Source: Ophiosphaerella korrae (lineage: Eukaryota > Ascomycota > Dothideomycetes > Pleosporales > Phaeosphaeriaceae). Taken from it: a stretch of DNA of 64,000 bases. The first letter of the stretch is position 1, and each line of letters opens with the position of its first letter. The notes beneath the pieces were generated by a model. The model saw nothing but the letters and a program-made list of their open reading frames with translations. It was not told the DNA's origin and did no database searches. This document shows, in pieces, positions 17,406 to 58,510 of the stretch. Made by a program: the position numbers and the translations under genes. The stretch covers positions 62,001 through 126,000 of the forward strand of contig JALNQF010000075.1 in NCBI GenBank assembly GCA_028456385.1, given 5' to 3'.

Positions 17406-18490
17406 TTAAATAGTGCGCACTCCTCTTGCTATCTCCATCCTCACGCGCCTTCGGTATTGCTCGCGGAACTGGATTCGGCCATAAGTTCCACCGCCAACAG
17501 CCATGAAGAAACCCAACGTCCATACACAGGTGATCACGAGACCAGTCGGGAAGAAGGCCAGATCCTGTCCTGGCACGACAAAGGGCGCGGCTGACTGGAC
17601 GGCAGCAGAGGCAGACGCTGCTGCGGCCGGGTCGACATTTGTTGGACCGCTGGCTGACTTTGCAAAGACGCCATTCACGAACGATGCGTCACCCGAGAGA
17701 GTGGTCTCGACGTCCTGTTTTGAGATCGGGTTGCGTGCGGCGAGGTCGATTTGTGGGACCAGCAGGGGTCTGAGTGATTCCCTAATATGACGTTAGTAGT
17801 GAAATATTGGAATGATGACAATGGTTGTTCTTACAGATTCATAGCATTTCCCATCAGGTTGTTGTTGATTCTGCCAACATACATGAGGACCTTCATCTCA
17901 GTTATGGTGTTGGCATTCTGTCTCTCAACCAACAACCCATCCCTAACTTCTCTGGCGCGCACTGGTGGCCAGCTAAGGTTTTGCGTGGCTCGTTTGGTGA
18001 AGTTGCCTTGCATATTCTGCACGGTAGCACCAAGGTACGAAAGTGTCATGCTAACATCGGCGGCGGTGACACCTACCCAGGGGTCGACAGGGGCAGATAC
18101 ATTGTACATGCGTAGCTCAGCTTGGAAGACGCCGGTACTGTTGTCAAGGAATGGCACGTTGTAGCAGACAGCAATACCACTTGGGTTGGAGGCTTGTCCG
18201 TTGAGGTTTCCTAATGAGTCCATGCATGCCTTCTTCGTCTCTACTTCCCACTTGGCATAATCGATCCGTGATGCGTCGCCAGATGCTGGCGTGAGTGATG
18301 CTAAAGGTGCGGTGTCTGGAGGGTTTGCGTTCTGTCGTCGAGTGAGGGTAGCGACGAGGTTGGCTTCCCTCCGTAGTACATCCTCCACATCGTCACTTGA
18401 CTGTAGGAGAGCGTTGGCTTGTCGAAGCTTGATGGCGGTCGCGTGTCCCGCAGCGAGCAGACCGCCGATCAAGGCAGTTTTGAACAACAT
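17406..18490 (-). CDS. Secreted or membrane-anchored glycoprotein of unknown function
   Basis: Two exons (18490-17835 and 17781-17406; 53-nt intron) give 343 residues. A signal peptide covers residues 1-19. The lumenal part has N-glycosylation sequons at NST, NVS, NFT and NLS, two cysteines (in KKACMDS and VCYNVPF), and an Ala/Ser-rich stretch before a single membrane segment near 296-318. It ends with a basic cytosolic tail (REQYRRRVRMEIARGVRTI). This is a type I single-pass protein, probably of the secretory pathway or cell surface. I do not recognise the family, and no catalytic motif is seen. Confidence 0.75.
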
Positions 18491-20596
18491 GGTGAAAGGT
18501 ATTAGAAGCGTCCGGCGATATTAAAGGTGGTAGAGCGAAGGCTGCCGAGCTGCGCTGCAGCGTGGTAGAAGGAGAGTAGTGAGCAGCGACGCTTGGAAAA
18601 GAAGAAGAAACGAAAGACACGAGAAAGCCTAGGGAAGCGGCTCTACACGGGAGTCATTAGGAGGGTAGGCGAAGCGCTCGTATGATCAAGAAAATTTGCA
18701 GGGCTTCGGGGACACGCGGTGGGTTGAGCAAGCAGGGCTTGGTTTCTCGTGAATCGTACGGCAAGCTCTAGAATGGCGTGACCAGGGAACAGCGATCACA
18801 CAGCGGGAGAAGCACCAGGCCTAAAATGCAGTGCCTTCGCAGAGTTGAGACAGGGTCTGATTGAGGATGAGACGCACAGCATAATTGATTGCCATGCGTT
18901 CACCCCGTAGCGGCTAAAGGGTAGCTTATTTTGGTAGATTAGAGCCTCAGGCCAAGCTGGCCAACCGGATTGCGGCTAGGGGCAGATCATTTTGAAAGTG
19001 GATGCAATAATGCATAGCAATTGTGAACTCCTTGAGACAATTGGTGTTGTTGACGAGACAAAGTCCAGACAGTCTACGTTAGGGGCGCTTGTAAGGGTCG
19101 GATCAGGCACGTGAGGCCGCGGCCCCAGCCAATAGGAACTGTCTCTGCCGCCTTTACCGGATAGCGCAGTCGCATCCCTGTTTGAGCCTCCTCCAACCTC
19201 CGCGTATGTGCATCCACAACCTTCCTTTATGAACAACTTCAATGCGCCATTCTCACGCGCACATGAAGGCACTCTGCGGCCGCTGTCACGCTCTGGCTGC
19301 GTTACAGTCTGTTATGTATGACGAGAGCGTATCGCTGGGGTGAAAGATGACTCCGGCCAGCGAGCTGTGGGGCGGATGGTGGAAGAAAAGTAGGATACTG
19401 GTACCTTATGACTGCACCTGGAGAACGAGCCAGCATAGTAATTATGGCCAAGAGCCTAATCATACCTATATTTACCAGCGAGTTTTCCTCGTTTTTGGAG
19501 ACGGACAGATACCCCGCTTGCAACGGTCGCACCAGATCCTGCAGAGCGGTGCTACCTTGTTCCGCATCGTGAAGCTCGGTAGATTGAACCGCATGCATCA
19601 CGCAGGCTTCAGTCCGCCTGGCCGGCACTTGCACTGGCTCTGGCACCGCCATCCCGGACACCGTTATCTAGGCACCTACTCGGCCTGACATCTCTCTATC
19701 GGGCTATTATTGCATGGCTTGAAAGCCCCCAAAGACGTTTCGCCTCCAACTGTCTGGCACATGGCGGAATAATCGCCGAGAAGATACGGTGAGCAGGTGA
19801 CGCAAACAATCGTGTTGGGCAGGTTACCAGCCCTTCGCTGTTGCGATGCCCCCCTACGGATCCAATGGCTCACCTCAGATTGATATAAGACGCTGGTCCT
19901 GCGTCCTCGTGTGCTTGCGTCAGGCACACCCCCGGGGGTCCTGCGCAAGCTCGACAGCCTCTCATAAGGCGGCTAAGGTCGCCTCAGCCGGGCCCTGTTG
20001 CTGTCGGAACGGCTCGCGCGCTATACATATGATTGCGTTGGTGATCTGGCACCACACGGCGTTGTCTAACTGCGAACATATGCGCAAGGTGCGCCTTTTG
20101 CAGAGAGGCGACTCTGAGGTGGCCACGTTCGCGTGCATACAACTAACCCACAAGGGTGCGCTCGTGCCTCATCTGCATTCGCCCAGCACACTTTTTGAGG
20201 CCCTATATTGACACCTTCTACTAATGCGCTCGAAATGCGGGCAGGTAGGTGCCAGCACATCAAAAAGCCTCTGCTTTTGCTAGAGAAGCCTTGCTCTGGC
20301 CCCGTCCGACTACCCGAGCACTCTCATCTGTGCCCGAAAGCGTGCTGTACTTCTTCTACAGACTGGGGCTCCCGGACCCAACATTCCCTCATTGCTGTCT
20401 CTCACGTTTCTCGCTCTGTTACGCTGAATTCCTCGTTTTGCTTTTTGCATCTGTACTTGATTCCAGCCGGCCCTAAACTGCCACCTGCTGCAACCATCCC
20501 GTCCGCAACTATTATCCCACACACCACCCCGACTCTAGTACTGCTCGTTGACCGCTCATTGCTCACCTGATAGAGCAATTTTTCAGTCTTGCAGCA
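18491..20596. other. Gene-free 2.1-kb region
   Basis: This is between two divergent genes. Open frames up to about 120 codons occur on both strands, with no splice logic or recognisable domain. The last 350 bp are pyrimidine-rich and are probably the promoter and leader of the pseudokinase gene. Confidence 0.5.
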
Positions 20597-27348: not shown

Positions 27349-29133
27349 ATGGCCCAGAACAGTATGAACAGCTTCACGACGCTGATAAAGCGGTGAGTAT
27401 GCCCAATCGCACAATACTCCAACACCCGCCATCATGACCCCGAAACCCGACCAGCAGCCCATTGGCCGCAATGGCCACCTCCAGTGTCCATCCAAAGTAC
27501 TGACGACCATGGTGCGCAGGCTTGAGGCTGCGACAAGTCGGTTGGAGGACATAGCCAGCTCTTCGTTCCCTAAGGGAGAAGAGAGCGCTCCCGCTGCTAC
27601 CAATGGAACCCAGAGCCCGGGGCCAGCTGCAAAGCTTGCTGCGGCCACCAATGCCCCGCCCACCGTGAACACGCCCACCGAAAGCTTGCCACCGGCGATT
27701 GAAGCCTTTGATCACATGATCAATACAGAGTTGAAGGCGTGGCTGGAATTGAGCGGCCGCCTAGGAGAAGTCATCGAGGGCCAGTCGAAAGCAGTGCAGC
27801 AGGCCTTCGCTGCCCAACGACACTTCATCTTCGTTGCCAACAAGGCGAAAAAACCGGATGACAGGACCATCATGGAGCTCCTCAAAGTCTTACAGGCCAG
27901 CATGGAGAAGACAGATGTATTCCGACAGCAGAATCGCGAGGCTGCCCTCAAGGACCCTCTTTCCATGGTCGCCGACGGCGTAGGATGTCTGGGATGGATC
28001 ACAATCAGCAGCAGCGGCAGTATGAAGCCTTACGAGCACATCAAGGAACTCTTTGGCGGAGCCCAAATGTACGGCAACAAGGTACTCAAGGAGTACCGTG
28101 ACAAGTATGACACGTCCTTCTCCGGCTAAACACTGTACTGACGCGCGCATGTAGGCCTGAGAACAAGACCTTTGTCGACTGGGTACGGGCATATTACAAA
28201 TTGTTCGAGACACAGGCCGAATATGCAAAGAAGCACCACCCTAACGGTGTCGCATGGAATCCAAATGGCATTGATGCCAAAGAAGCCGCGAAACAGACAT
28301 CACTTACTTCGTCTGCTTCTTCTTCTTCTTCTTCACCCTTTCCTCCACCGCCACCTCCTCCAGCAGGAGCAGTTCCACCGCCGCCCGGCCCTCCCCCGCC
28401 ACCAGGCCCACCACCACCTGGTGCCGCGCCCGCACTCAAGCCTGCGCCAGATATGAACTCGGTGTTTGAGGACCTCAACAAAGGCTCTGATGTAACAAAA
28501 GGCCTTAAGAAGGTCGATGCAAGCCAGATGACGCATAAAAATCCCTCTCTCCGCGCAAATGCCCCTGTTCCTACACGCAGTGACAGCAATGGATCGCTCA
28601 GAAGCAAGAGCCCCGCACCACCAGGCAAGAAGCCCAAGCCTGAAAGCATGCGAACCAAGAAACCTCCTCGAAAGGAACTTGATGGCAATCGTTGGATAGT
28701 CGAGAACTTTGAATCCCCTACCGATATGGTCGAAATCGACGCTGAACTCAACCACACCATCCTCATTTCCCGCTGCAAAAACACTACTATCCGAATCAAC
28801 GGCAAAACAAACGCCATTTCAATCGACAATAGCGCACGCGCAAGCCTAATCATCGACTCCCTCGTGTCCTCCGTCGACGTCATCAAGTGCCCCAATTTCG
28901 CCATTCAGGTCCTCGGCACATTGCCTACCATCCTACTCGATCAAGTCGATGGTGCAACTGTGTACTTGTCTAAGGAGTCGCTCAACACAGAAGTCTTCAC
29001 CAGCAAATGTTCGAGTATCAACATCAACCTACCAACGGAGGATGACTATGTAGAAAATGCGGTCGCAGAGCAGATTAGGAGTTACATCAAGGATGGGAAA
29101 GTTGTCAGTGAGATCGTAGAGCATGCTGGGTAA
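27349..29133 (+). CDS. Adenylyl cyclase-associated protein (CAP/Srv2)
   Basis: Three exons (27349-27392, 27520-28104, 28155-29133), introns of 127 and 50 nt, give 535 residues. The N-terminus has the cyclase-binding coiled coil (LIKRLEAATSRLEDIA), followed by the helical CAP-N domain (IEAFDHMINTELKAWLELSG ... PENKTFVDWVRAYYKLF). A long polyproline stretch follows (around residues 270-310), then the C-terminal beta-helix (CARP) domain from about 370 (NRWIVENFE, ISRCKNTTIRINGK, NAISIDNS, VYLSKESLNTEVFTSKCSS). CAP recycles cofilin-bound actin and exchanges its nucleotide, and in yeast links Ras to adenylyl cyclase. Family and gene structure are secure. Confidence 0.93.
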
Positions 29134-30637: not shown

Positions 30638-31604
30638 CTACACGTCAGCATCGGGCATAGCGTTGTCGTTCGCCCACTCCTTAATCTCATCAAAGTTGCG
30701 ACACACATGGTGCGATTCATAGTCTGGCCAGTACCCTTCTTTGCCCTCTTTGGGATGAAATGTGAAGACATTGATATCGCTAAGACACATGAGGTTCATG
30801 CGTAGTATCTCAATACAGTGATCTAACAACATGCCTGTATTAGCAAAGATATGCTTGTGTAATACCGAATGGAAAAGGCTTACCAAGATGCCCACGGACA
30901 CGTTCTGGTTTGTCGTTTGTGTCACTCCACCACAGCTTGGGATAGTACTCAGGGTATGTGCTCATGCGTAACAAATTGAGGCAATGTAGTTGATGGAAAA
31001 CCTCCAGTCCAACGCGATACCCCGTCTCTCCGGTCTTAGGGTTTGTGACCTTCATGGCAGTATTGGGCATCTGCAGTTTGGGGAAGTCTTCAAGGGACAC
31101 CATTTGATCCGGCACTAACAGGACTATCAGTCTAGACTTGGGTACAGGGTACATTGAACCCACTTACAATACGCGATATCCATCCATGCGTTCTCCACGT
31201 CGTCCGTGATGCCGACGTACTTTGATGAATTCAAGGGGTTTGCGAGGGAAAACTTGACGGGCTCGTATCCCACCTCGTGCATGGCGGGTGCTTCTCATTG
31301 TCAATGTTTGGCTTGTTTAAAGTGAGAGTTGATTGCAACCCGGGATATCTAACTTACAATGAATACCGAATTCATCCATCAATTGGGCTGCTGAGTATCC
31401 TGCGGTATTTCGTTGTGACACGACAGAGCAGATCAACGATAACATTGACAATGTGAATAGAAATAGGTTGAAGAGGGTGAGATAAACATAGTTCTGCCGC
31501 TGACGGGTTTCCTGATTGACGTCATGTATGTTGAGGAGAGCGGCGTTCTCGAAGTCGGACTGCGAATCGTCCTGCGATGATGCAGAATCATTGTATTTCT
31601 CCAT
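30638..31604 (-). CDS. UstYa-family (DUF3328) oxidase
   Basis: Four exons on the minus strand (31604-31358, 31290-31168, 31114-30884, 30834-30638), introns of 67, 53 and 49 nt, all in phase 1, give 265 residues. There is an N-terminal cytosolic part, a membrane anchor near 39-62, and the paired metal-ligand motifs of the family: HQLHC at 164-168 (HQLHCLNLLR) and DHC at 205-207 (DHCIEILRMNLMCLSD). UstYa-type proteins are copper-dependent oxidases or cyclases. They modify fungal ribosomal peptides such as ustiloxin, phomopsin and asperipin, and in some cases other metabolites. Both histidine motifs are intact, so the enzyme may be active. About 1.2 kb away lies the divergent repeat-precursor gene at 32836, which gives a possible substrate. 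Confidence 0.88.
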
Positions 31605-32835
31605 TTTTGGTACAATTCTGAGGAAGAAATTCCAAAATTTAAATGATTAGATACTATTAAAAAACCCAATTACAATCGACCTGCGATGAGAAAGGTGCTC
31701 GAGGTTGCACACTTGGTACTTGAAGATGATGAGATGGAAAAGAAGGCGGAAAGGCGGATGCACGGAAGTTCGTTGAGGGCGGATCTAGCCTCAGAATATT
31801 CGATGACATAGCTAGTCTAACGCAGCATGGATGGAACGGAATGCAGCTCCGTTCCTGCTGCATTAATGCGTTCAATCATAGCCTATCGTTCCACAGACTC
31901 TGGCAACATTAGCCATGGACTACCAAGCATCTGCGACGCCAAGCTGTGACAAGCTTTAAACAAGCTTTTTCTGGCACTTAAAGCGGAATAAGTATCATGT
32001 TACTGGCGCCATCGTTGGTCAGCCCCATCGCAAGGTTTCGAGTTGAGCGCTAAGCCAAGACTCGTCACCCTTGCGCCTCACTACTGTTTCATTCTTGGCA
32101 AACTAACGAGGACTTGGCTTGGGCACTGATCGTTTATAGGTTCTGACACGATCATGGAACAAAAGTGCTTGAACTTTGCGTAATCCACCTTTTCTTAGGA
32201 AGTGTAGGACTCCGAGGCAGTGGAACGCGGCCGTTATGGGTCTCTATTTTGAGCCAATAGTATGACCGCATGGCCGTCTTCACACCTTGTTGATTTACTT
32301 CAACCACGGCGAAAGTGCTGAGTTAGGTAACAAGGTAGCACGACTCCATGTAAGCGGAAACGTCGGGATGGATGCTCTTGTTCCTTTCCCCGTGCGATCT
32401 ATACGGTGCCACCATGAGATCCTGCTACTGCCGGTTTTCCGTTCGTTGGCAGGCTTGCCAATTCCTGAGGATCTTGTTGGTGGATGCTAACGCCCAAACG
32501 TGCACATGTGTTTGGCCTGCCGAGATTCAAGGCCACAGGGTATTCACTTTCACAATACCCGCGAGGAGCAACCAGGATGCATACTCCCTTCATAGTACGC
32601 GGTCAATGCGAAATCGTTTCAGATGCCTCACCCTAACTCAAGCAATTAAGCAAAGCCAGTCTGAGAGGAGCCGTTGGAGTATATATTGGAACTGAAATCC
32701 AGAGGAAGGAAGGCAGGCGTAGAACGTGCTCATTCATTCGCACAACTTTCTCAGTACAGTTTCATTTCTTCACTTCTTTTCTGCTGTGCAGACCACTCTT
32801 TTAGTTTTACTTACTAGCTTTGAACCTTCTCCATC
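31605..32835. promoter_or_regulatory. Divergent intergenic region between oxidase and precursor genes
   Basis: This 1.2-kb region serves both divergent genes. On the precursor side a TATA-like gtatatatt lies at 32680-32687, about 150 bp before the ATG, followed by a strong pyrimidine-rich stretch from 32740 to 32820. No other gene is seen. Shared regulation by the nearby Zn2Cys6 protein is possible, but no site was established. Confidence 0.5.
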
Positions 32836-33640
32836 ATGAAGTTTACCATTATCACTCTTTTGGCACTGGGTGCCTCCACCTCAGCCTATGTTGTTCCAGA
32901 GAATGTGCGTGCAGCAAGAAATGCTGTTGAGGCACGCATGCCTGTAAGATACACGAACACAGATACCAAGCTATTTAGCTGACAAAAATTAGGGAAGTGG
33001 ACCAGTTCGAGAAGTGAATCTTGTTGCAGCCCTCGCTACTCGTGACCTGGAAGCTCGTGACCTTCACCATAAGGGCAAGGGCAAAGGAAAGGGCAAGAAA
33101 AACAACCGTCGCGATGTTGAGGACGTATCTACCGATGCTACCGAGGCTGATTCTGACGATGCTGAACTCGAAACCCGTGCTGCTCAGCCTGCCAAGGGCA
33201 AGGGAAAGGGAAAGAAAGCCAAGGGAAAGAAGGCCAAGGCCGCAAAGGCAGCTACAGCTAACCGCCGCGATGTTGAAGATGAGTCCGACGATGCTGAACT
33301 CGAAACCCGCGCTGCTCAGCCTGCCAAGGGCAAGGGAAAGGGAAAAAAGGCCAAGGGAAAGAAGGCCAAGGCCGCAAAGGCAGCTACAGCTAACCGCCGC
33401 GATGTTGAAGATGAGTCTGACGATGCTGAACTCGAAACCCGCGCTCCTCACCACAAGGGCAAAGGAAAGGGCAAGGGAAAGAAGAACAACCGCCGCGACG
33501 CTGAGGACGATTCTATCGAAGCTGACTCCGACAACTCTGAGGATGCTGAACTAGAGACTCGTGCCGCTAAGGGAAAGGGTAAGGGAAAGGGCAAGGGCAA
33601 GAAGGCTAAGGCAGCAAAGGCGGCTAAAGCTACTAATTAG
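32836..33640 (+). CDS. Secreted tandem-repeat precursor with Kex2-type sites (possible RiPP or cationic-peptide polyprotein)
   Basis: Two exons (32836-32943, 32993-33640; 49-nt intron) give 251 residues. A signal peptide covers residues 1-17 (ends ASTSA). After a short leader come five basic blocks rich in Lys, Gly and Ala, separated by acidic spacers such as DVEDESDDAELETR. Dibasic RR closes the first four basic blocks, at 75-76, 127-128, 171-172 and 203-204. Order: short block (HHKGKGKG, 61-76), long block (AAQPAKGKG, 99-128), long block (143-172), short block (PHHKGKGKG, 188-204), C-terminal block (227-251). Kex2 cleavage after RR would release peptides with an acidic front and a basic end. 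Each basic block begins after ETR or EAR, a possible second cut. This is the layout of Kex2-processed repeat proteins, including dikaritin precursors, but the blocks contain no Tyr, Phe or Trp. A lysine-rich wall protein is the alternative. Confidence 0.82.
33179..33442 (+). repeat. 132-bp coding tandem duplication
   Basis: Two adjacent 132-bp (44-codon) units encode identical residues 99-142 and 143-186. They differ at only about four nucleotides by eye, nearly all silent, which points to a recent duplication or gene conversion. Confidence 0.88.
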
Positions 33641-34269: not shown

Positions 34270-37159
34270 TCAAAGGTTAAGGTCTGGCATATGCGAATCA
34301 TCCCCTGCTTCCATTAGGTTCATCAAATATCGTGATCCAGAGTACCAGTCTTGCACCGAGTTTTGGCCGATACCAGCCATATCCATACCTGCAATGCCAC
34401 TACCATTGAAGTTCTGTGAGTAAGCGCCCATGCCATCCAGGGAGTGCGGGGTTGGGTAGCTTGCCATTGGCCAGGACGAGTTGGGCATGAGTCCTAAAGC
34501 ACTTAGGTACGGATCGAATTGTGTCATTGCATTTGGGTCGAGTTGGGCTCCATCTGTGGCAGCAAAGCAATTCGGGTGATTTCGTGAAAAAGCTTGTGAA
34601 TGTAGGGTGTTATCCTGTATCTTGGCTTGCAAATATAATTTCGCGACCTGTAGGAAAAGATAACACATCTTGTAAAGATTGTCGGCCCCTTCTGAGATGC
34701 CACGGCTAGACTCTAGGCTTGTGACAAATGCTTGCAAAGATTTCATGTCGGCCGGGTCGGTATTTTTGATAGTATTGCAAAATATCACGATGAATCTATT
34801 CCTTTGTTTTAGCATTGGCATTTGTAGCGCATAATCGAACTCACGGTGTGAAAGGGGCCTATTTTTTCCAATAAGTTAGCATAGAGGACCAGACAGAACA
34901 ACTTGAACACTCACCTGAAGAATTGACCAGTGTATGTAACCTGTCCAGAACTCCTCGTTGCCCTTGATATTGAATTGAGCATTACATCGCATATGCGCTA
35001 CCAGAGCCGCACGTGCTGACTCTAGGCATTCCTCATTGAATGTGACGTTATCGGGACTCACTGCGCGTTGTATTAGTGAGCAAATTGAGTAGTGCATAAC
35101 CACATCGGCATAAAATAAGACATCCTCAACTTGCTCATTTGACTCTGTCCATGTAAGCGTATGCTTCGCTGAAGAATGGCAAAACTTGCCGTCGATGTAC
35201 TGACTAGCATCCTTTGATAGGGTCATATTTGACTGTACACTACGTTTGCGCTTCGACGGCAATTCCGTATTATTTGGACTGTAGTTCGTGGCCATTCGCT
35301 TCTGTGTAGGACCTGCAGGCTTCTGACTAAGCTGAAAGTCTGCACAACGCTCATACCATGCTTGATTCAAAGCATTCACAAGATCGCTTGCGGTTTGGGT
35401 ACGCTCTTCAGCCGATCTGAGAAAAGCGGCAGGGCTGAAAAGTCTCTCATATGTCTCGCCTTGTATTCGAGCCACTTTGATCCAATAAACGAGCATCTCT
35501 TGCCCATCTAAGTTTTCATCAGGTAGCATATTATCGGCAAAGAATGGTAGGGAGATGTCCCAATCCTGTATGTAGCTTGCGCGGCCCAGGCGTAATGACA
35601 TAGTTTTGTCGAACACGTAGATCATCCAAAATATATGGATTTTCGAGTTGCGCTCGTCGTCGCTATCATCTTTCATTGTTTGGTACCTGTGATAACCCAG
35701 ATTCTGACAAAGTCCAGCGGCTGTCCCAATCATAACGGAGCAGAGCGTGGGTCTGCACATATCGATGGCGCATGCCCCTCCAAGAAGGAGCGCCATTATG
35801 TTTTCGTACGTAGCCGGAATAAATATGTCGAGTTGACTCATGGCTACTTCCATCTGCTTTTTACACTGGGCCACATAAATTCGACACTCGTCTGGATTCA
35901 TACCAGATGATGGGAAAGTGGTGAACTCTTCGAAGATGCTATGCATGACGCCATAGGCGAGCATGCGGCGAGTGGCACCACATTGACCAGGATTATGATA
36001 TGCATCTTCGAGGATGGCTTGAATGTTCTTTAACTTGAGGAAAGGGAAAACAACAGCGAGGGATGTGCCTGGGCAATCTGAAAGGATGACGTTATCATCT
36101 GACTTGTCGCCTCTCCGAGGTAACCACTTACTGTGGCAATTCTGTATCACGACCTTCACTGCCTCCCACGGCGGTTTATCTAGCTTCTCTGGGTCGATGT
36201 CCGCAAGCGAGCGGTTTATTAGAGGATGATGACTAGAAGTCGAGGATGTCAAGTGACCATGGCGCGACACCAGGTCATCAAGAGCGAGAAGCGCACTCCT
36301 AACCTCTTCATTTTGTCCAATAGAAGGTGTGCTGCCAACCGCTTTGGCTAGAAGTTCCCGTGCATAGTCAGACTGAATGTGAATGGCCGTTTCGCCTTCG
36401 AAAGGCGCGGGTGTAGAAGCCTCCTCTACTGCGCTTGGGCTCTTCATAAAACCCTTTCGACAAGATTGGGGCTGACTGCCTACTTCGCTAGAGTCTCTTC
36501 GAATATCAAGATCCCCAAGCTTTGCGGCAAGGCTTTCGAGAACATGTTCGATGCCTGCTAGCCGATCCTCTATGCGATCAATCTTCTTCTCGCTGCGAGG
36601 TCTGATTAGCTACTAATGCCCCAGGGGCGATAGTATCGACAAAGTGCGTGACCACAAGTAGCCTACTTACTATTCTTCGGAAATATGGACTCTCTGTCGC
36701 TGGGCCTTTTGTGTAGGGGCACTTGTTGTACAAGCTTTTTGTCCTATGAGTGTTTGTGCATGGTAATGTAAGTGCTTGGCTTACTCAATTTGCTTGCCCT
36801 GCAATTGGAACAGGGGAAAGTGCGATCGCAACGGATCCTGTTGTAAGACACAGTCAGTATACAATCCAGAGGTCGTTTTAACAGGATGTTCAGACTTTCT
36901 CGTTCTGCACGCATCGCACTGTCAAAAATGGTCAGTACTTGGCACGAAGTCCGCCACAGATGCGGGAACATACAGCACGCTTGGAGGTGGCTCCGTCGAG
37001 TGAGACGTCCATGTCATCTCCCTCCTCCATGGTGGGAACTGTGGCGGATGCAGGAATATCCGCGGGGCCCGTCGGTGAAAGTACTCGGGGTTGTGTACCG
37101 ATATTGTGAGAGAAGCCGGGCATGGAATTCTCGGGCTCCGGGCCCAATGGTTGTGTCAT
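34270..37159 (-). CDS. Zn2Cys6 transcription factor with fungal_trans domain
   Basis: Eight exons on the minus strand: 37159-36974, 36918-36896 (23 nt), 36837-36785, 36743-36671, 36592-36132, 36077-34915, 34858-34845 (14 nt), 34795-34270. They give 832 residues. The binuclear zinc cluster uses Cys63, 66, 73, 79, 82 and 92 (CDACRTRKIRCDRTFPCSNC, then nine residues to the last Cys) and is spread over three exons. A linker and coiled coil follow (VHISEEYEKKIDRIEDR). The middle-homology domain includes GGACAIDMCRPTLCSVMIG near 366-385. The end has APFTPFIVIFCNTI and a Met/Gly/Asn-rich tail. A 54-nt intron at 36131-36078 is open in frame. It is probably the regulator of the flanking genes, as such factors often control adjacent clusters; it is divergent from the ABC transporter. 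Confidence 0.87.
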
Positions 37160-37559: not shown

Positions 37560-40500
37560 ATGTCGCCGGTCGAGGAGAAACAGTCGCCATCGCCGCCACG
37601 GCGTGAGAGTGACGAGGAGAAGCGAGGCTCAAGTGTCGGTGACCTAAAGCCTGACTCGCCAAAAGGGGGTCTCAGTCACTACTTTGTGAGAACTCGCATG
37701 CGCAATAACACAATGCGCCCTCAGCTGATATCGTGAAAGCGCGTCTTTCAGTATGCAGATAGGACAAGTTGGATACTCAATTGCATTGCCTTTATCGCAG
37801 CTGTTGGTGCTGGTACATTACTACCTGTAATGGACATCATATTTGGCAAATTTGTCACCACCTTTACTAGTTTTGCAACTGGCAGTGCAACACCAGAACA
37901 CTTTCGTTCCGAAATAAATAAATACACGTGCGTTGGACCTAGTTTCGTTTCGGTACACTTGAAACTAACAATAACCAATAAGGTTGTACTTCATCTACCT
38001 ATTCGTCGCAAAGTTTGCAGCAGTCTATATCCATTCCAGTTGCATCTCTATTTCTGCTATAAGAACCACCAAGGCTTTGCGCATCGACTTCATCAAACAT
38101 ATCCTACGACAAAACATCGCCTACTTCGACTCCGACTCCGCCGCTTCTGTCTCCACTCAAGCAACCACAAATGGCAACAACGTCAGCAATGGCATCTCCG
38201 AAAAACTAACCTTGACAATACAGAGCGTTTCAACTTTTGTTTCTGCCTTCATCATTGCGCTTGCCATACAATGGAAGCTCACATTGATAACGATAAGCGT
38301 CGTTCCCACAATCATATTGGTCACTACCGTATCCATTGGCATCGATACTAAGAACGAGGGAGAGATACTTGCCATTCACTCAAAAGCTGGGTTGCTCGCT
38401 GAAGAAGTTTTTTCGACCATCCGGACTGTCCACGCCTTCTGGCTCAACCCGCTGTTGTCACGCAAATATGACAAGTATCTCGATGATGCTATGACCGTTG
38501 GAATGAAGAAAAGCCCCAACTATGCAATTCTCTTCTCCATTGAGTTTTTCTGCGTATTTGCAGCCTATGGGTTGGCCTTTTGGCAAGGCATTCGCATGTT
38601 CTTTGATGGACAAATCAAGGAAAGTGGAGATGTGTAAGCGCTTCCCCTGACGACCTTTCCGCTTCGCTGACCATTGTTAGGTTTACTGTTATTCTTGCAG
38701 TCATTGTTGCTGCTACTGCGATGACCGCGATTGCACCCCAAATTCTGGCCCTTACAAAAGCCTCTTCATCTGCCGAAGAGTTATTCAAAACAATTGACCG
38801 AAAATCGGAGATCGATCCATTAAGCGACGAAGGTCAAGTTCCAACCACCTGCAAAGGTGTCATTGAGATCCAGGATATCACTTTTGCTTATCCCGCAAGG
38901 CCGGATATTACTGTTCTAACAGGATTCACTCTTTCTGCTCCTGCAAATAAGACAACCGCTCTAGTTGGTGCCAGCGGCTCTGGCAAATCTACTATAATTG
39001 GGTTACTTGGTATGTGCATCTGATTTCCAGGCTGAGCTCATTCTAACTGTTCTAAGAACGCTGGTACGACCACCCTACTGGCAACATATATCTTGACGGT
39101 GTCAACACCCGAGATTTGAATCTCACTTGGCTCCGTACAAATATTCGCCTTGTGCAACAAGAACCTGTATTATTTTCGGGCACTGTTTATGAAAATGTTG
39201 CTTTTGGGCTGTCTGGAACCGACAAGGCAAACCTGCCGGAAGTTGAGCAGCGTGCATTAATCGAAAAGGCATGCAAGGATGCGTACGCAGACGAATTTAT
39301 CGAGCGACTACCACAAGTAAGATATACTCAAGACATACTCTACGAGAATCTTGTGTTTAACTCAGTATAGGGTTATGACACTCAATTGGGTGAACGCGCC
39401 ATGAATCTTTCCGGTGGGCAAAAGCAGAGACTTGCAATCGCGCGCAGTATCGTCTCTGAGCCCACCGTGTTGCTCCTTGACGAGGCAACTAGCGCTCTGG
39501 ATCCTAAAGCCGAGAAAATTGTACAACAAGCGCTTGATCGCGTTTCCAAAAACCGTACAACTATCGTCATTGCCCATAAGTTGTCTACTATTAAAAATGC
39601 TGATAATATCGCTGTAATGGCCAATGGCTCTATCATTGAACAAGGGACACATGATAGCCTGTTAGAGCTGGATGGAGCGTATGGTGAGTGAATATAGATT
39701 CCGAGATTTTGAAGTCATGGCTAAAAGTTACAGCACGCCTCGTTAAAGCACAAGATCTAGGAGACACTCAAAATGAAGAGGTTGGAGATGAGGATCAAAC
39801 GATTGAAAAAGTTGCTCTTGTTCGGACACAAACACAAGCTTCTAACTTTCACGAAGTCGCGCAGAGAATAACCAAGGATGGCATCAATTATAACCTCATT
39901 CACTGTGTATACATCGTGTTAAAAGAACAGGGCTACCTTTGGAAGTGGTACAGTCTTGTTGCGATTGCCGCCATCGTTGGAGGTAACAACATTACGTACG
40001 CCAAAGGTTAGCACTTATCGCTAATCTTTTTTTAGGCGCAACATACCCTGCTCAAGCTATACTTTTCGGTCGCATAGTTGATTCATTTCAACTATCACCC
40101 GATCGAGGGGTCAAACAGGGTGATTTCTACTCCCTGATGTTCTTCATGGTGGCAATCGGAAACTTTCTTGTCTATGCTGTTGTTGGATGGGTCAGTAATA
40201 TTATTGCCCAACACGTGTCAAGACGCTATCGGCGCGAGATTTTCGACTTGATCCTTAAGCAAGACATGGCATTTTTTGATGATAAAGCGAATGCTACGGG
40301 AGCATTAGCCTCCTCCCTTTCCAGCTACCCTACGAATCTAGTAGAACTTCTAGGATTCAATTTGATGTTGATCCTCATCAACATTGTCAATATCATCTCG
40401 AGTTCTATACTAGCTCTGGTCCTCGGTTGGAAGCTTGGCTTAGTAGTTGTTTTTGGAGCCTTGCCACCAATCGTGGGTTCTGGATACCTTAGGATTCGAC

Positions 40501-41821
40501 TTGAGTTCAAGCTTGAGGAAGAAACGGGAAAGCGCTTCGCGAGCAGCGCTGCTCTTGCCTCAGAGGCAGTAACCGCCATACGAACTGTATCCAGTCTTGC
40601 GTTGGAGCGACACATCCTGGAAAAATATTGCGACCGCCTACAAGGCGTCGCAACAAAATCAATCAAAGCTTTGGTATGGACTATGTTTTGGTATTCATTG
40701 ACCCAGTCAATTAGTTTCCTCGCCATGGCCTTGGGTTTCTGGTATGTATAGTCCCCCCCAAAACATGCTGACTAGCTAACAATTAACAGGTATGGCGGAC
40801 GGCTCATTAGTTTTGGAGAGTACACAACGAACCAGTTCTTCACTGTGTTCATTGGCGTGATATTCTCTGGCGAGGCCGCTGCTCTATTCTTTTCCTATAC
40901 CACGAGTCTTACAAAGTCTTCCACCGCGGCGAACTACATTTTTTGGTTACGCAGACAAACGCCTGCTGTTAAAGAGGATCCCTCAAAGCCACCATTTGAC
41001 GATGGTAGTAACAAAGGGCCAGCACGTATCGAGGTGCAAGGCGCTGCTTTTGCATATGAATCTAGACCTCATGCAAAAGTCCTGGAAAATATTGATGTCG
41101 ATGTGAGTAACCAAGGTCGCGCCTTTTGTTGTCAGTTATTAAGTAGCAGCAGGTACTTCCAGGTCAGTTTATTGCATTTGTCGGTGCCAGCGGATGCGGT
41201 AAATCGACTATGATTGCTCTTCTCGAACGGTTCTACGATCCTGTCTCTGGACGTATATCAAGTGATGGGACTGGTCTATTGGAACTTTGTCCTAGGAAGT
41301 ACCGAAAGGATATTGCGCTCGTTCAACAGGAGCCGGTCTTATATCAGGGCTCTGTACGTGACAACATCGCCATGGGTATCGAGGGTGATGTTACAGACGC
41401 CGAGGTTGAAGCTGCAGCGAAACAGAGCAACATCAGTGACTTCATCATGTCGCTACCCGAGGGTTTTGCAACAATGTGTGGAAACAGAGGTACGCAACTT
41501 TCGGGTGGCCAACGCCAACGCATTGCCATAGCAAGAGCCTTGATAAGAAAGCCGCGCTTGCTTCTCCTGGACGAAGCAACCTCCGCATTGGACACCGAAT
41601 CCGAGAGAGTGGTCCAAGCTGCACTGGAGAAGGCCAAGAGCGGAAGGACAACAATCGCAGTAGCTCATCGTCTCAGTACTATCAAGGATGCTGATTCAAT
41701 TATTGTTTTTGCCAGAGGGAAGATTGTTGAGAGTGGTACCCATCAGGAGCTGCTATCGAAAAGGGGTGTTTATTATGAGATGTGCCTGGGGCAAAGCCTA
41801 GATCGGAGTATACCAACATAA
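37560..41821 (+). CDS. Full-length ABCB/MDR-type ABC transporter
   Basis: Ten exons (37560-37685, 37752-37927, 37983-38633, 38681-39009, 39057-39316, 39371-39683, 39734-39982, 40036-40741, 40790-41102, 41153-41821) give 1263 residues in the order TMD-NBD-TMD-NBD. NBD1 has Walker [10 protein letters not shown] (about 413), signature LSGGQKQR (about 527) and Walker [11 protein letters not shown] (about 547). NBD2 has GASGCGKST (about 1051), LSGGQRQR (about 1156) and [11 protein letters not shown] (about 1177). All motifs are intact, so it is probably active. Family members (yeast Pmd1-like, P-glycoprotein-like) export hydrophobic compounds and peptides, and the subfamily includes the a-factor-type peptide exporter Ste6. 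Its place next to the regulator and near the precursor suggests export or self-protection for that product. Confidence 0.92.
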
Positions 41822-42981
41822 TTTCTGGGGGGCTTGGCGGACTGTATTTGTAGCTGCCTTCTTTCCTAATACTGGCTAGAAAAAAGTATTTGTTTCCCAT
41901 GATCATGATGCTTGCCATCACTGTGACGCTTGTGGCGGAACCAACCGTTCCGCAGTGACGTCGCTCAGGATCCATAGCCATCATTTGAGATGTGCCTGAG
42001 GTTTTGGGTACGGAGTCTCCATCTACCGTTGATACCTTCATGCAATCGCGGGTACTTGTCAGCCGCTGTCAGCGCACAGACCTAGCGTGAGTCGCTGCAT
42101 CTTGAACCCTGAGAACAAGTAGACGGAAGTCCTGGCATCATTCCTCAACATTTGCTGTGCTATTCTACGTACATACCACCAACGTATACATATTGCTGTT
42201 ATCTTATATCGTAATAGCACAGCCATAGACGGCTATGTGATGGCTACCAGTGTTACTCTAATGTGGTCGACGTCAGCAACACCTTACAACCTACCTACCT
42301 AGTATGCTGTCTATTCAATAAAATGACTCGGTGGTATAATACCAATACCAGCCGCACAGCTGCTCATCATTTCATTATTTGCGGCTCTGCTCTTGCCGCC
42401 CGCGAACGACTTGAAGCATGTTGTGCGACACCATCGCTCGTCAAACACCGAGCTGTCTCGGAACCTCGCTGTGGCCAACCACAAACCTTAACCAGCTACA
42501 GAATGCTTGGACGACGACGACTGCATACTGCGCTCTCCAAGCCGACGTCGTGTGCTTCCATCAGTTGTACCCAGCGTGCCTTGACTTACAAATTACCCTT
42601 CGGCCAAGAACGCAGATCTCCTACTAATGGTCGTGATTCTGTTTCGATGGCGCCCGTCCGAAAGCCTGGACACTCTAAATTTGATGGCGGCAAGACCCAC
42701 AGTGGCACCCTTCGGAGACAATACATGCTTGAACGCAATGCCCCAGGCTGCAAAGACCACACATGCCAATGCGCACTCAAAACTTTGTCATTCCCATTCT
42801 GCCATTACTTTCCCTCTCTCCGCTTTCCTTGGTGTTCATCCCTCGAGAAAGTCAGGCCATACTTTCTCCATTCCGTTGAACGGATCCACTCTTTCAATTC
42901 TAGTCCTGGCGACATTTCTTTATCTTTGGATGATTACACGTGGACGGGACGCCTACTTAATATTTATTACTCACAACAGAT
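41822..42981. other. Intergenic with possible unrecognised upstream exons
   Basis: A plus-strand frame at about 42418-42627 encodes a 68-residue stretch with several cysteines (DTIARQTPSCLGTSLW, YCALQADVVC, YPACLDLQ). It could be an ectodomain exon of the next gene, but I found no start codon with a signal peptide or clean splice links, so it is not annotated as coding. Confidence 0.4.
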
Positions 42982-44468
42982 ATGGCTCGATACCAACGTC
43001 TTCGACCATCGCCTGTGAAGATCTTTCCAAAACGCATCCGTAGACAAGCCGAGGCCCCAGCAGCCTCATCAGCCCCAGCAGAGGCGGAGGAAAAAGAAGA
43101 GGAAGACGAAGACGAAGGTCCAGAGAGCCCGGACTCACCTTTCAGCAGCCCTTCAACCGTAGGAGGTTCTTCGGACGACGAATCAGACTCGGACGATGAT
43201 GAGGAGCCGCCTTCGCCAGCTGAAAGCGGTACACCTGCTCCAGCTGGAGAGGCGTCCGTATCTGAATCTGCATCGCCTTCCCTTCCGGCCCCATCAGGTA
43301 CAGACGTTCCTATAGCTGTCTCGAGTGGATTCACTCTGGCACCCACGCCTTCCCCAAGCGGAAATATTCCCATCGCCCAAGAGAGTGCATCTCAGCCCAC
43401 GCCCGGGTCAAGAGGCCCAACGCGAGTCCTTGGTCCAGATCCGACTCAAGCCTCGCAAACTTTATCGTCTAACCCGGCGTTTACTGGGAGCGCCTCGTCG
43501 AAAGGCAATTTTGCTGCTGCCCCACAGGTCACCGGTATAGGCGCTGTTGTCACAACTGCACTGCCAATTACAACAACAATTGCTCGAGGTGTGCCAAATA
43601 GCCTTGTGACATCGACACTTCCAGGGACGTCGCCGACTGGGTTACCCATGGCGCCAGCACAGTCAGAGACCGCTGGAGAAGCCGATGCTCCCCAGAGATC
43701 TACAGCGCAAGAGAGGACATTGATCACCAAAGGCGCCGCAGCGGCAGCGATTACGCTTAGTATTCTAGGTAAGATTTGCTCATTTCACTATCCATTACAA
43801 AATTTAATACTCGACTAGGTGCTCTGGCAATCATCGCCGCAGTGTTTATCTGCATCAAGCGCCGCAAGCGCAGACAGAACCAATATCACGGGCGCATTGC
43901 AGACGATGCCTTCGACCCAAGCAACACAGGCTCTCTACGCAACCCCGAAATTGCACACGTGACAACTGAGTCCCCCTTCTTCAGCAGCGCAACTGCTGGA
44001 AATGCGCATCTTACCCGCTCCACGGAACGAAGTAACACGCTCTTCGGCGCAGGTCCGTACGAACGACCCGAAACGGTATCTACTGACCGCAACAACTCAC
44101 GTTATCCCGGCCCCCAGCCTACACCGAATCCATTTGCTGATCCGCCGCTCAACAAAGCTTATGACATCCTAGGCGGTCGACCACGCTCAACCACGCTTAC
44201 AGATCGCGGAAGCTGGGTTAAGAACCCTTTCAAAGATCCAGCAAGTGAACGATTCGATCCATTTGGCGAATTGCAAGAGAAGGCGCGCCAGGAACGAAAG
44301 CGGTACCTAGAAGAATCCCGGAGAGAAGCAGAGTTAGCGCGGGAATTTGGTGCAAAGGAGAAGATGGGATTGGCGCCTCCCGAGGGTGCACAGAGGAAAG
44401 GCAGTGACGTGACAGTTGGCGGACTGGGGGTGTTGGATCGGAGTGGTGGCGGCGGCGGATATAGATGA
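42982..44468 (+). CDS. Mucin-like single-pass membrane protein
   Basis: Two exons (42982-43768, 43819-44468; 50-nt intron) give 478 residues. Residues 20-230 are Ser/Thr/Pro/Ala-rich with a long Glu/Asp run (about 35-75), like a heavily O-glycosylated stalk. A membrane segment (about 250-273, TKGAAAAAITLSILGALAII then AAVFICI) is followed by a strong stop-transfer sequence KRRKRRQ. A 200-residue cytosolic tail carries repeated NPF (NPFAD, NPFKD), motifs used for endocytic EH-domain binding, and ends Gly-rich. The topology resembles fungal wall sensors (Wsc/Mid2 type), but no signal peptide is found at this start and the first exon may be missing. Family not recognised. Confidence 0.7.
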
Positions 44469-55509: not shown

Positions 55510-57190
55510 TAAGATTAATTGCGCTACAATAGTATACTTAAATTAGCTAAATTTTTATAGAGAGATAGATTATATAGATTTATACTAATTCCTTCTATAT
55601 CCTTGTATATAGCACTTACTACACGTTAGTAGTATACGTTAGCGCACAGTTGTTATATCTATCTAGGTCTTTCTCTCTACTTCCTTAGCTAGTCTCTATC
55701 TATCTTAGGCCTATAATACGCCTCCTATAGCTATATACTATCTTAGCTTATCTTTCTTCTATTTCTAGTAATTATTTATAGCCTTAAGTTTAATATTTTC
55801 TTCTATAAAAATAGCTACTAAGTATATTACTATTTAATAGCCCTTAATAAGTTAAGATAGAGCTTAACTAGAGGGGCTTTAAGATTAATATTAAAGAAGA
55901 GTTCTAAGTAGTTAAGCTTACTTATTAAGCTAAGTAACTATATAAGGCGTCTCTACTACTTATAAGCTTATATTACTAGCTAGAATAAGAGATAGCGTTC
56001 TAATAAGAGTTAGGTTTAATAGGACCTAGGCGGGCTTAAATAGGATAAGTCCTATCGCCTAGAATTTACTTTTAATTATAGCTTTAGAGAAGACTTATAA
56101 GTATATATAAGTATATACCTAAAAGAACTCTTCTTTATTAATATAGAAGACTCTTTAGTATACTAGCTATCTAATCTTATAACTATATATAGACTTAAAA
56201 GAAGAGAAGTAGCTAATATTAAGTAGCTAAAAGAAGTAAGAAGAATAAGCTAGTATATAGAGGCTAATAATCTTATTGTTTTTATAATACTAGTTAAACT
56301 TAGGTATAGTATAGCTACTATACCTATCTAAGATTAGTAGCCTATACGTACCTATTAACTACTACGTATACTTATTAAAGTACTTTAGCTACTTAAGCCC
56401 TAGCTTATTAGTTATCTAGCTATTATTAGAGACTATAATTATCTAGTTAGGTAGAAGGTCTTAATACTAGCTAGCTTAGTAGACCTTACTAGCTAAAATT
56501 ATAAATAGTAGTAACGTTAAGCTAGAAGTGCTAACGCACTTAATTACTATAACCTAGTTACAATTACTAGGCTATACGTTAGTAGCTTAACTAATTATAT
56601 CTAAACTAGTAACTACTTTTAATATACTAGCTACTTTTATTATAAAGCCTATCTTATTAAAGTTATATATATCTTTATTAAGTATTTTATATATTTTATA
56701 TATCTTTTATATAAGCTTAAACTATACTCTAATCTTAACTAGGTCTTTATATTTAGTACGCTATAAGTAGAGCTTTTTATTCTACTTTATCTAAAGCTAA
56801 GACTAGCTCTTAACCTAATATAATACCTAGTTCTTACTAATAGGTTTAGGGAGAGGATTTTAGCTACGCGTAGTAAAAAGAATATCTACTATTTATTGTA
56901 TATTAATAATTTAAGGTAGAAAGCTATATTAGTTAAGGTCTAAGATCTAATTAATAAGAGACTACTTTTTACTTAGAGAGAGCTTATACTTTCTTTTATT
57001 AAACTTTTAGATTAAAAGGACGTATTAGTAGTAGTAGTAAAGCGTTATTCTTAGTATATTATAGAGTTTTATAGTCTTATACTTACTTTTTAAATATAGA
57101 TTTTAAAATAATTAAGTAGTAAGAAGAAGTTTACTACTTATTTAAGAGTATTAAGGCTCTTAGGTAGGCTATATAGCTAATAAGATAGAA

Positions 57191-57245
57191 GAGCTCTACT
57201 TATTTTAGTAGGGTAGCCTAAGGAGTAGAGTAGCCTAAGAAGTAG
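57191..57245 (-). repeat. Right terminal inverted repeat of the pogo element
   Basis: Reverse complement of 55455-55509 with six transitions. It ends aagaagtag and is followed by the TA target duplication. Confidence 0.88.
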
Positions 57246-58007
57246 TAAAATATATTAATATATATTACTACTAACTATATACTTCTACTAATCTATTATA
57301 CGCCCTTATAGATTACTCTATATTACGTGTCTAGGTTATAGTTTATTTTTTAATCTAGGTTATTACTTTACTTATCTTATACTTTATTAGTACTTAAGTT
57401 AAAGCTAATTAGTTTTATCTTAATTTCTCTTATTACCTCTATAATACTATCTCTTCTTTTAAATAGATTCTTATTTCTTTATCTTAGAGCTAAAGTTATT
57501 AATCTTATTTCTTTATTAATATTAAGTTTTTTATCTTCTCTCTTTATACCTACTAAGTTATTAAGAACTACCTTATCTTAGGTTAGCCTAAAGTAGTTAG
57601 CTCTAAGGGAAAGGTATATAAGCCTTTTAAAAGAATTACTAAGTAGTTAGTAATTACTCTATTAATTAATATACCTTTTACTATAACCTAACTCTTTATA
57701 CTCTTACTATAACGTCTCTAACCTACTAGTAACCTAGCTTAGAGTAAGCTAGTTTAATATAAGTCTACTCTTTATTATCTTTAATTAGTAGATTATATAT
57801 TATACTATAGTATTATAATATTCTTTTATTCTTATTATAAGTCTTTAAATCCTTTATTAGTTTATCTTTTTTTAAAGTATAGTAAAGCTTATAAAGTATA
57901 TATTTATACTAATACCTATTTATTTTATAACTTATCTAGTATATCTCTAGTAAAGTATAAGTTAAAGTATAATAGGGTTACCTATTATTAACTATAAGTA
58001 ACTACTA
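57246..58007. other. AT-rich sequence of unidentified origin
   Basis: RIP-like composition throughout. No reading frame, terminal repeat or similarity to the neighbouring elements could be made out. It may be the rest of the interrupted LTR-type element or another decayed repeat. Confidence 0.5.
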
Positions 58008-58510
58008 GTAGTATTAGTAGATTAAGAGTTAATAACAAAAGCTTATATTATAATTAAGTAATAGGCTATAAATAATAGAAGTATTACGATAGTAATAAGA
58101 GAACTATAGATAGACCTAATAAGCCCCTTAATAACTAACTTAGACTTATATAACAATAAGAGATATAAACCTAATTAGGAAGCTACGTATAATTATAATA
58201 CCTAGAGTAATCTATAATCTATAGACTCTTAGTATTAATAGATTATAGATTAAAGGTAATCTACAATCTATTAGTCTTAGTACAATATAGATTATAGATT
58301 AAAGGTAATCTATAAACTAATAACTTTAGTATATATAGATTACTATAAGTATATATTTAGTAGTAATACGTATTATTAAGATAGTATTAGCAATTTAATC
58401 CTTTAACTATAGAACGCTAATATAAGATAGTTACGAAATATCTTCTATTATTTATAAGTTATTATAGATTATAACCTAAGCTTTTACTATTACCTTATAA
58501 TCTACTAACT
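58008..58510. repeat. Probable 5' LTR of a Ty3/gypsy element
   Basis: It begins near agtagattaagagttaataa, which is also found at 55309, and ends near taatctactaactctttt, an imperfect inverted copy of the start. It precedes the gag-like region. Exact ends and primer-binding site cannot be set after RIP. Confidence 0.5.
58207..58352. repeat. 49-bp tandem repeat within the probable LTR, three copies
   Basis: gtaatct recurs at 58207, 58256 and 58305, each followed by a variant of ataatctattagtcttagta and then atagattatagatt. The period is exactly 49 bp; the third copy is the most divergent. Confidence 0.8.

Follow-up and report, generated by a model that had tools for sequence, protein, structure and literature searches.

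The 64,000-nucleotide stretch of Ophiosphaerella korrae DNA analysed here (the window) carries on its forward strand a gene, called the KEP gene below, that runs from an ATG at 32836 to a stop codon ending at 33640; these are the limits proposed in an initial annotation of this DNA, and they hold once an intron is removed. The product is 251 residues long and is interrupted at the DNA level by a single inferred intron of 49 bases (GTAAGA...ATTAG, 32944..32992), with the frame continuous on both sides. Exon 1 (32836..32943) encodes a likely signal peptide, MKFTIITLLALGASTSA, judged by eye, and the start of a pro-region, and exon 2 (32993..33640) encodes all of the repeats and the stop codon. 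A comparison of exon 2 with Pfam gave no family at E 0.1. Open reading frames in other frames across the repeats (33114-33554 on the + strand and 32978-33550 on the - strand) were judged to be by-products of the repeats.

Behind the likely signal peptide and the pro-region, the protein consists of five cationic blocks with four acidic spacers between them, all encoded on the + strand. Block 1 (33059..33112, net charge +7) is short, reads DLHHKGKGKGKGKKNN-RR and is preceded by LEAR; spacer 1 (33113..33178, -9) ends in LETR. The long block 2 (33179..33268, +12) reads AAQP-AKGKGKGKKAKGKKAKAAKAATAN-RR and is followed by spacer 2 (33269..33310, -7), which is DVEDESDDAELETR. Block 3 (33311..33400, +12), also long, is identical to block 2 at the protein level and forms part of a 132-base repeat, and spacer 3 (33401..33442, -7) is again DVEDESDDAELETR. 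The short block 4 (33443..33496, +8) reads AP-HHKGKGKGKGKKNN-RR, spacer 4 (33497..33562, -10) ends in LETR, and the long block 5 (33563..33637, +10) reads AA-KGKGKGKGKGKKAKAAKAAKATN, with the stop codon in the place of RR. The remaining two spacers, variants of 22 residues, read DVEDVSTDATEADSDDAELETR and DAEDDSIEADSDNSEDAELETR. The initial annotation had described five Lys-rich blocks in the order short-long-long-short-long, RR at the end of four of them, and an alternation of acidic spacers with cationic blocks; the translation bears out all of this: from block 1 onwards, all nine segments alternate in the sign of their charge, and block 5 ends at the position where RR stands in the other four. 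No Tyr, Phe, or Trp occurs in any of the five blocks, and HH is found in two of them, preceded by Pro in one (APHHKGKG).

A complete UstYa (DUF3328) gene, which the initial annotation did not mention, adjoins the KEP gene on the - strand (30638..31604; two of its exons match PF11807, with E 2.5e-20 and 8.3e-16). It is composed of exons at 31358-31604, 31168-31290, 30884-31114, and 30638-30822, the start of exon 4 having been set by orthologues, and encodes both HxxHC motifs, HQLHC and, after a splice-site correction by orthologues, HLDHC. The two genes are divergently transcribed from an intergenic region of 1.23 kb (31605..32835), in which scans for bacterial-type promoters and terminators, whose models are not applicable to fungi, gave signals not clearly above shuffled sequence. 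The next recognised gene on the UstYa side is that of CAP, the adenylate cyclase-associated protein (27389-29130). On the other side of the KEP gene lie a Zn2Cys6-type transcription factor gene (34270..36971, - strand; PF04082, E 2.7e-15), with a partial PF00172 match of 20.5 bits that is just below the cut-off of 21, and an ABC transporter gene (37737..41818, + strand), both positions being outer limits of open reading frames. The transporter has two membrane regions (PF00664, E 1.4e-44 and 3.5e-41) and one clear ATP-binding domain (PF00005, E 1.1e-29), a second (3e-4) being weak, partial, and below the cut-off. Beside it, the window encodes at 42961-44465 (+) a low-complexity, acidic stretch and, after it, a likely membrane segment, with no Pfam match. 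Elsewhere in the window, a secreted-looking protein (MLFKTALIGGLLAAGHATA...; 17834-18520, - strand) has LRR and LTRR sites near its N-terminus and no Pfam family; it may be secreted and carry a pro-domain. Positions 56001-64000 have a G+C content of 0.20-0.25, compared with 0.42-0.64 elsewhere, and this AT-rich block looks like a RIP-affected isochore.

A search with the whole KEP protein gave five matches (P0001-P0005); it scored the 7,990 candidates that shared most words with the query, among which Lys-rich proteins may have displaced true relatives. P0001, a protein of 397 residues from Didymella exigua (E 7.4e-27), has the layout in common with the window protein and carries EPHHKGKG, against APHHKGKG in one block of the latter, and it was the sole match to the N-terminal residues 1-72 (E 4.7e-16). 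Judging from both alignments, P0001 is a true relative, N-terminus included. P0002 and P0003, whose contigs are no longer than 2,491 bases, keep the layout and have different N-termini. P0004 (E 4.1e-4) and P0005 (E 6.7e-4) show no evident signal peptide and were rejected as matches due to low complexity, and the Pfam matches of P0001 (T6PP_N) and P0003 (Peptidase_C37 and DUF3246) were below the cut-offs and were taken as chance. A search of the organism's own genome with the protein revealed no paralogue, the four matches being its own two exons and two that were taken as chance (E 1.27 and 1.54). Scans of two contig collections that contain no fungal genomes (viral_contigs and genome_contigs) gave, as expected, no relative.

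The 132-base unit gave the highest score (572) of the 32 rows reported for the window by Tandem Repeats Finder, and the repeat pattern of the KEP gene is more than chance. Long units 2 and 3 agree in all 44 residues, with three synonymous and no nonsynonymous codon differences, and the near identity of the two units in DNA speaks for a recent duplication, as would be expected if replication slippage had enlarged a Lys/Gly-rich tract that has no selected product. Such drift is very improbable, however, when the short blocks are considered: blocks 1 and 4, each taken with RR and the following D, agree in 17 of 17 residues, although 9 of the 17 codons differ, all 9 by synonymous changes and none by a nonsynonymous one. 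P0002 and P0003, with their other N-termini, still keep the layout, which likewise argues against drift. Because the codon differences between repeat copies are synonymous, they point to selection on the peptide sequence. The KEP gene is a real gene under constraint, and it lies within a small candidate cluster that contains UstYa.

Every block of the window protein opens after LETR or LEAR (5/5), and RR closes 4/5, giving Kex2-type sites between the repeats. Over the window protein and P0001-P0003, all 16 block openings are of the form [L/I/V]-x-x-R, with Thr (11), Ala (3), Lys (1), or Gln (1) at P2; these tallies, made by eye, cover sites with a Lys-rich block behind them and thus leave out other [LIV]xxR sites, among them one of P0003 (LETR-EPHQ) after which the short sequence shows no such block. 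The preferences described for Kex2 are an aliphatic P4 and, almost without exception, Arg at P1, with Thr tolerated at P2 (PMC8528282), and the LETR and LEAR openings fit this extended motif, as far as sequence can tell. LETR would therefore itself be a plausible Kex2 site, and each block would be bracketed by two sites. At the other end, Arg closes all 14 internal blocks of the four proteins, as part of a dibasic pair in 8 (by eye). The five internal closings of P0001 are four TAR and one KR. The initial annotation had named orthologues that do not conserve RR and retain the Lys-rich blocks as a refutation of its reading, and this is in part what D. exigua presents, with RR at 0 of 5 closings and the Lys/Gly blocks kept.

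Four of the five window blocks continue directly from the opening site with XA or XP, dipeptides that in alpha-pheromone precursors are the signature of Ste13 (PMC6339444). Over the four proteins such dipeptides occupy 14 of 16 block starts vs 2 of 14 positions behind block closings (Fisher p 1.3e-4, with dipeptides entered by hand and copies within a protein that are not independent). One D. exigua block starts with HHKGKG directly behind IEAR, the other five with EPHHKGKG, which is consistent with HHKGKG being the trimmed start. Moreover, the last block stops where RR cleavage and trimming would end, at ...KATN in the window and ...KANN in D. exigua. The reading of the gene as a polyprotein gains support from the Kex2-motif openings, the XA/XP dipeptides behind them, and this end of the last block at the RR position. 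The organism's own genome has one match to the proprotein-convertase domain and four DPPIV-type domain matches at three loci. As the opening-type motif is not confined to openings, being found also in the D. exigua spacers (LHTR four times, each followed by DA, as well as VEAR and VDAR) and in the pro-region of the window protein (VEAR and LATR), the spacers and the pro-region may be cut further, and internal Lys-Lys pairs could be additional Kex2 sites. The presence of the motif inside spacers slightly weakens the case for a cleaved polyprotein and slightly strengthens that for an uncut one.

The strict charge alternation, the low complexity, and the lack of conservation of dibasic closings in D. 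exigua would also suit a protein that is not cut at all, but is secreted or bound to the wall as a whole, as a charge-patterned disordered protein that perhaps self-associates through its acidic and basic blocks. This is improbable in view of the Arg at P1 of every internal closing and the aliphatic-P4 Arg site at every opening, the concentration of XA/XP at openings relative to closings, and a last block that stops at the expected peptide end.

How close the gene is to known systems can be judged from four comparisons. With the KEPs described so far (PMC6339444, PMC7329392) it shares a likely signal peptide, tandem repeats of at least 8 residues (the KEP criterion), and Kex2-type sites between them; it differs in that its cationic blocks are bracketed by an LETR opening and an RR closing, with acidic spacers between. 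Umemura 2020 catalogued 7,878 KEPs, 22% of them with a DUF3328 gene within 15 genes and the count highest at the next gene (PMC7329392). The initial annotation had given Tyr or Phe as core residues of the described fungal dikaritins, which is too narrow for DUF3328-linked KEPs: 65.6% of their repeats contain Tyr, and the frequent types G-3 and G-8 have di-histidine with Pro in the place of Tyr (PMC7329392). Type G-8 comprises 49 KEPs from 18 genera, several of them Pleosporales, and 45 of the 49 have DUF3328 within 15 genes (PMC7329392). Its likeness to the window gene lies in blocks without Tyr, HH in the repeat, an adjoining DUF3328 gene, and the Pleosporales affinity of the UstYa gene; it differs in that only two of the five window blocks have HH, one of them with Pro before it. 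Compared thus with G-8 by its description, the window gene matches only loosely. Nine of the 18 G-8 genera (by eye) also occur among the 120 of 177 UstYa matches listed, UstYa homologues being widespread, and neither the whole-protein nor the N-terminal search gave a match named to a G-8 genus.

The dikaritins include ustiloxin, asperipin-2a, phomopsin, epichloecyclin, and victorin (PMC10512285), and nine dikaritin clusters were recognised in Venturia inaequalis by the same criteria as here, namely a repeat precursor with a DUF3328 gene close by (PMC9632046). The window likewise has a KEP-type precursor beside the gene of a UstYa-family oxidase, the marker enzyme of dikaritins, and its context is dikaritin-like, judging from this complete adjoining gene. 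The differences are predicted cores of 14-24 residues, blocks free of aromatic residues, and the Ste13-like signature; the Tyr core of ustiloxins, phomopsins, and asperipin-2a is missing, a core that is not universal in DUF3328-linked KEPs. Ascomycete alpha-pheromone precursors, for their part, also have Kex2-type sites followed by XA/XP dipeptides, but the window gene lacks Cys and the PYGxPxG core of Pleosporales (PYG[LM]P[IV]G is absent from the KEP translation), and a UstYa gene adjoins it. Since Ste13 signatures are reported absent from the precursors of cyclic tetrapeptides and epichloecyclins (PMC6339444), the XA/XP feature and the UstYa neighbour indicate different classes.

The UstYa gene has orthologues with 86% identity in Phaeosphaeriaceae sp. 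PMI808, 77% in Coniothyrium glycines, and 75% in Alternaria (among the 120 of 177 matches listed), genera that we take to be Pleosporales. While the orthologue is widespread in this order, a KEP homologue came from a single named genome, and the pair may therefore not be inherited together; D. exigua itself is not named among the 120 of 177 UstYa matches listed, many rows of which are clusters. An idea that the enzyme is adapted to its substrate by acidity found no support, as the Pleosporales orthologues were not more acidic than other UstYa proteins: the last 195 residues had a median net charge of -10 (n = 44) in the former vs -11 (n = 41) in the latter, a difference in the opposite direction (p 0.054; matches P0006-P0062 vs P0075-P0125, 240-310 residues only).

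A UstYa gene so much more widespread than the KEP matches would be expected if it served another pathway and the KEP peptides were linear and unmodified, acting as secreted signals or polycations. The lack of Tyr, Phe, and Trp in the blocks agrees with this, as do the XA/XP dipeptides typical of alpha-pheromone-type KEPs, and DUF3328 enzymes are reported to hydroxylate and chlorinate, and to act outside RiPP clusters too (PMC12048977). Nevertheless, UstYa is the nearest recognised divergent neighbour of the KEP gene, and a UstYa locus would be expected within 5 kb of a given point with a chance of about 0.3%, as calculated from 21 loci in a genome of 63 Mb (27 matches at 21 or more loci, grouped by hand and thus at least 21). 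The frequency with which the di-histidine G-8 KEPs have DUF3328 close by points the same way. We regard unmodified linear peptides as possible, if on the unlikely side.

The reading we prefer, with a probability of roughly 0.6, is that the gene encodes a Kex2-processed repeat protein that releases cationic peptides, probably modified by the UstYa enzyme, for use as secreted polycations. The initial annotation had likewise proposed a Kex2 polyprotein that releases cationic Gly/Lys/Ala peptides; this is the best-supported reading of the locus, except that the RR closings on which it leaned are not kept in D. exigua. Kex2 in the Golgi would free the two ends of a block by cutting behind LETR or LEAR at its start and behind RR at its close. 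XA/XP dipeptides (AP; AA; AA followed by QP) would be stripped off by a dipeptidyl peptidase like Ste13, and the RR left at the end by a carboxypeptidase like Kex1. Such processing is predicted to yield HHKGKGKGKGKKNN from block 4, AKGKGKGKKAKGKKAKAAKAATAN in two copies, and KGKGKGKGKGKKAKAAKAAKATN, and the product of block 1 would retain DL ahead of HHKGKGKGKGKKNN. The average masses calculated for these peptides are about 1517.7 Da for HHKGKGKGKGKKNN and 2311.8 and 2226.7 Da for the others. A short HH-peptide and long KGK/AKA-peptides would thus be released, and the acidic spacers would keep the basic blocks charge-neutral until cleavage. The UstYa-family oxidase, which is likely membrane-anchored, probably modifies the precursor or the peptides before release, judging from gene adjacency, and the transcription factor and the ABC transporter are possible cluster partners.

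The peptides would most likely be used outside the cell, where as secreted polycations they would bind to metal or to anionic surfaces and serve as antimicrobial or host-interaction peptides. The predicted peptides of the window have a net charge of +6 to +10 and contain none of I, L, V, F, M, W, Y, and C, and the absence of bulky hydrophobic residues makes it less likely that they lyse membranes in the classical way than that they bind to metal or to anionic surfaces. A centre of LGALAALA could make the D. exigua peptide more membrane-active.

The class of peptide precursors to which the KEP gene probably belongs is a known one, although its product would be unusual. The class as such is already known, since Tyr-free di-histidine KEPs beside DUF3328 genes are catalogued in Umemura 2020 (G-8). 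What look new against it are the Lys/Gly/His cores, the charge-balanced spacers, and the Ste13 signature: neither "lysine" nor "KGKG" occurs in the main text of Umemura 2020 (PMC7329392), "KGKG" is absent from that of Le Marquer 2019 (PMC6339444), and the titles and abstract openings of the open-licence literature offered no description of KEPs that combine Lys/Gly blocks with acidic spacers.

Although UstYa oxidases are best known from cyclic toxins built on Tyr, about a third of the repeats in DUF3328-linked KEPs are without Tyr (PMC7329392), and no product of the di-histidine types was encountered in the part of the literature covered. The candidate cluster, with one precursor, one UstYa gene, and peptides predicted to the residue, would make the action of UstYa on aromatic-free cores testable, and its acidic spacers suggest how strongly basic peptides might be produced safely. 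The interest of the locus would rise if UstYa proved to act on cores without aromatic residues. DUF3328 enzymes are reported to desaturate residues in phomopsin (PMC10512285), and here the chemistry might be, for example, hydroxylation, desaturation, or cross-links of Lys and His. That the enzyme acts on Lys, Gly, or His of such cores to give a class of polycationic, possibly metal-binding ribosomal peptides, freed by Kex2 cleavage on both sides and pheromone-style Ste13 trimming, is a tentative proposal that we consider rather doubtful.

As a control, the open reading frames of the other 20 UstYa loci of the genome were scanned for repeats over about 1.5 kb on each side of a match, and a wider look was taken at four of them (C318, C32, C126, and C457). 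The wider look added no further KEP-like gene to the single one found in the scan, which lies on contig C318 (L039 1334-1618, + strand; L008). This gene has a KEP-like repeat beside a UstYa gene, with Tyr-bearing SSYA(Q) units such as IFESDGELQVNNADTSSYAQKR, and is a candidate for a dikaritin precursor of the classical type.
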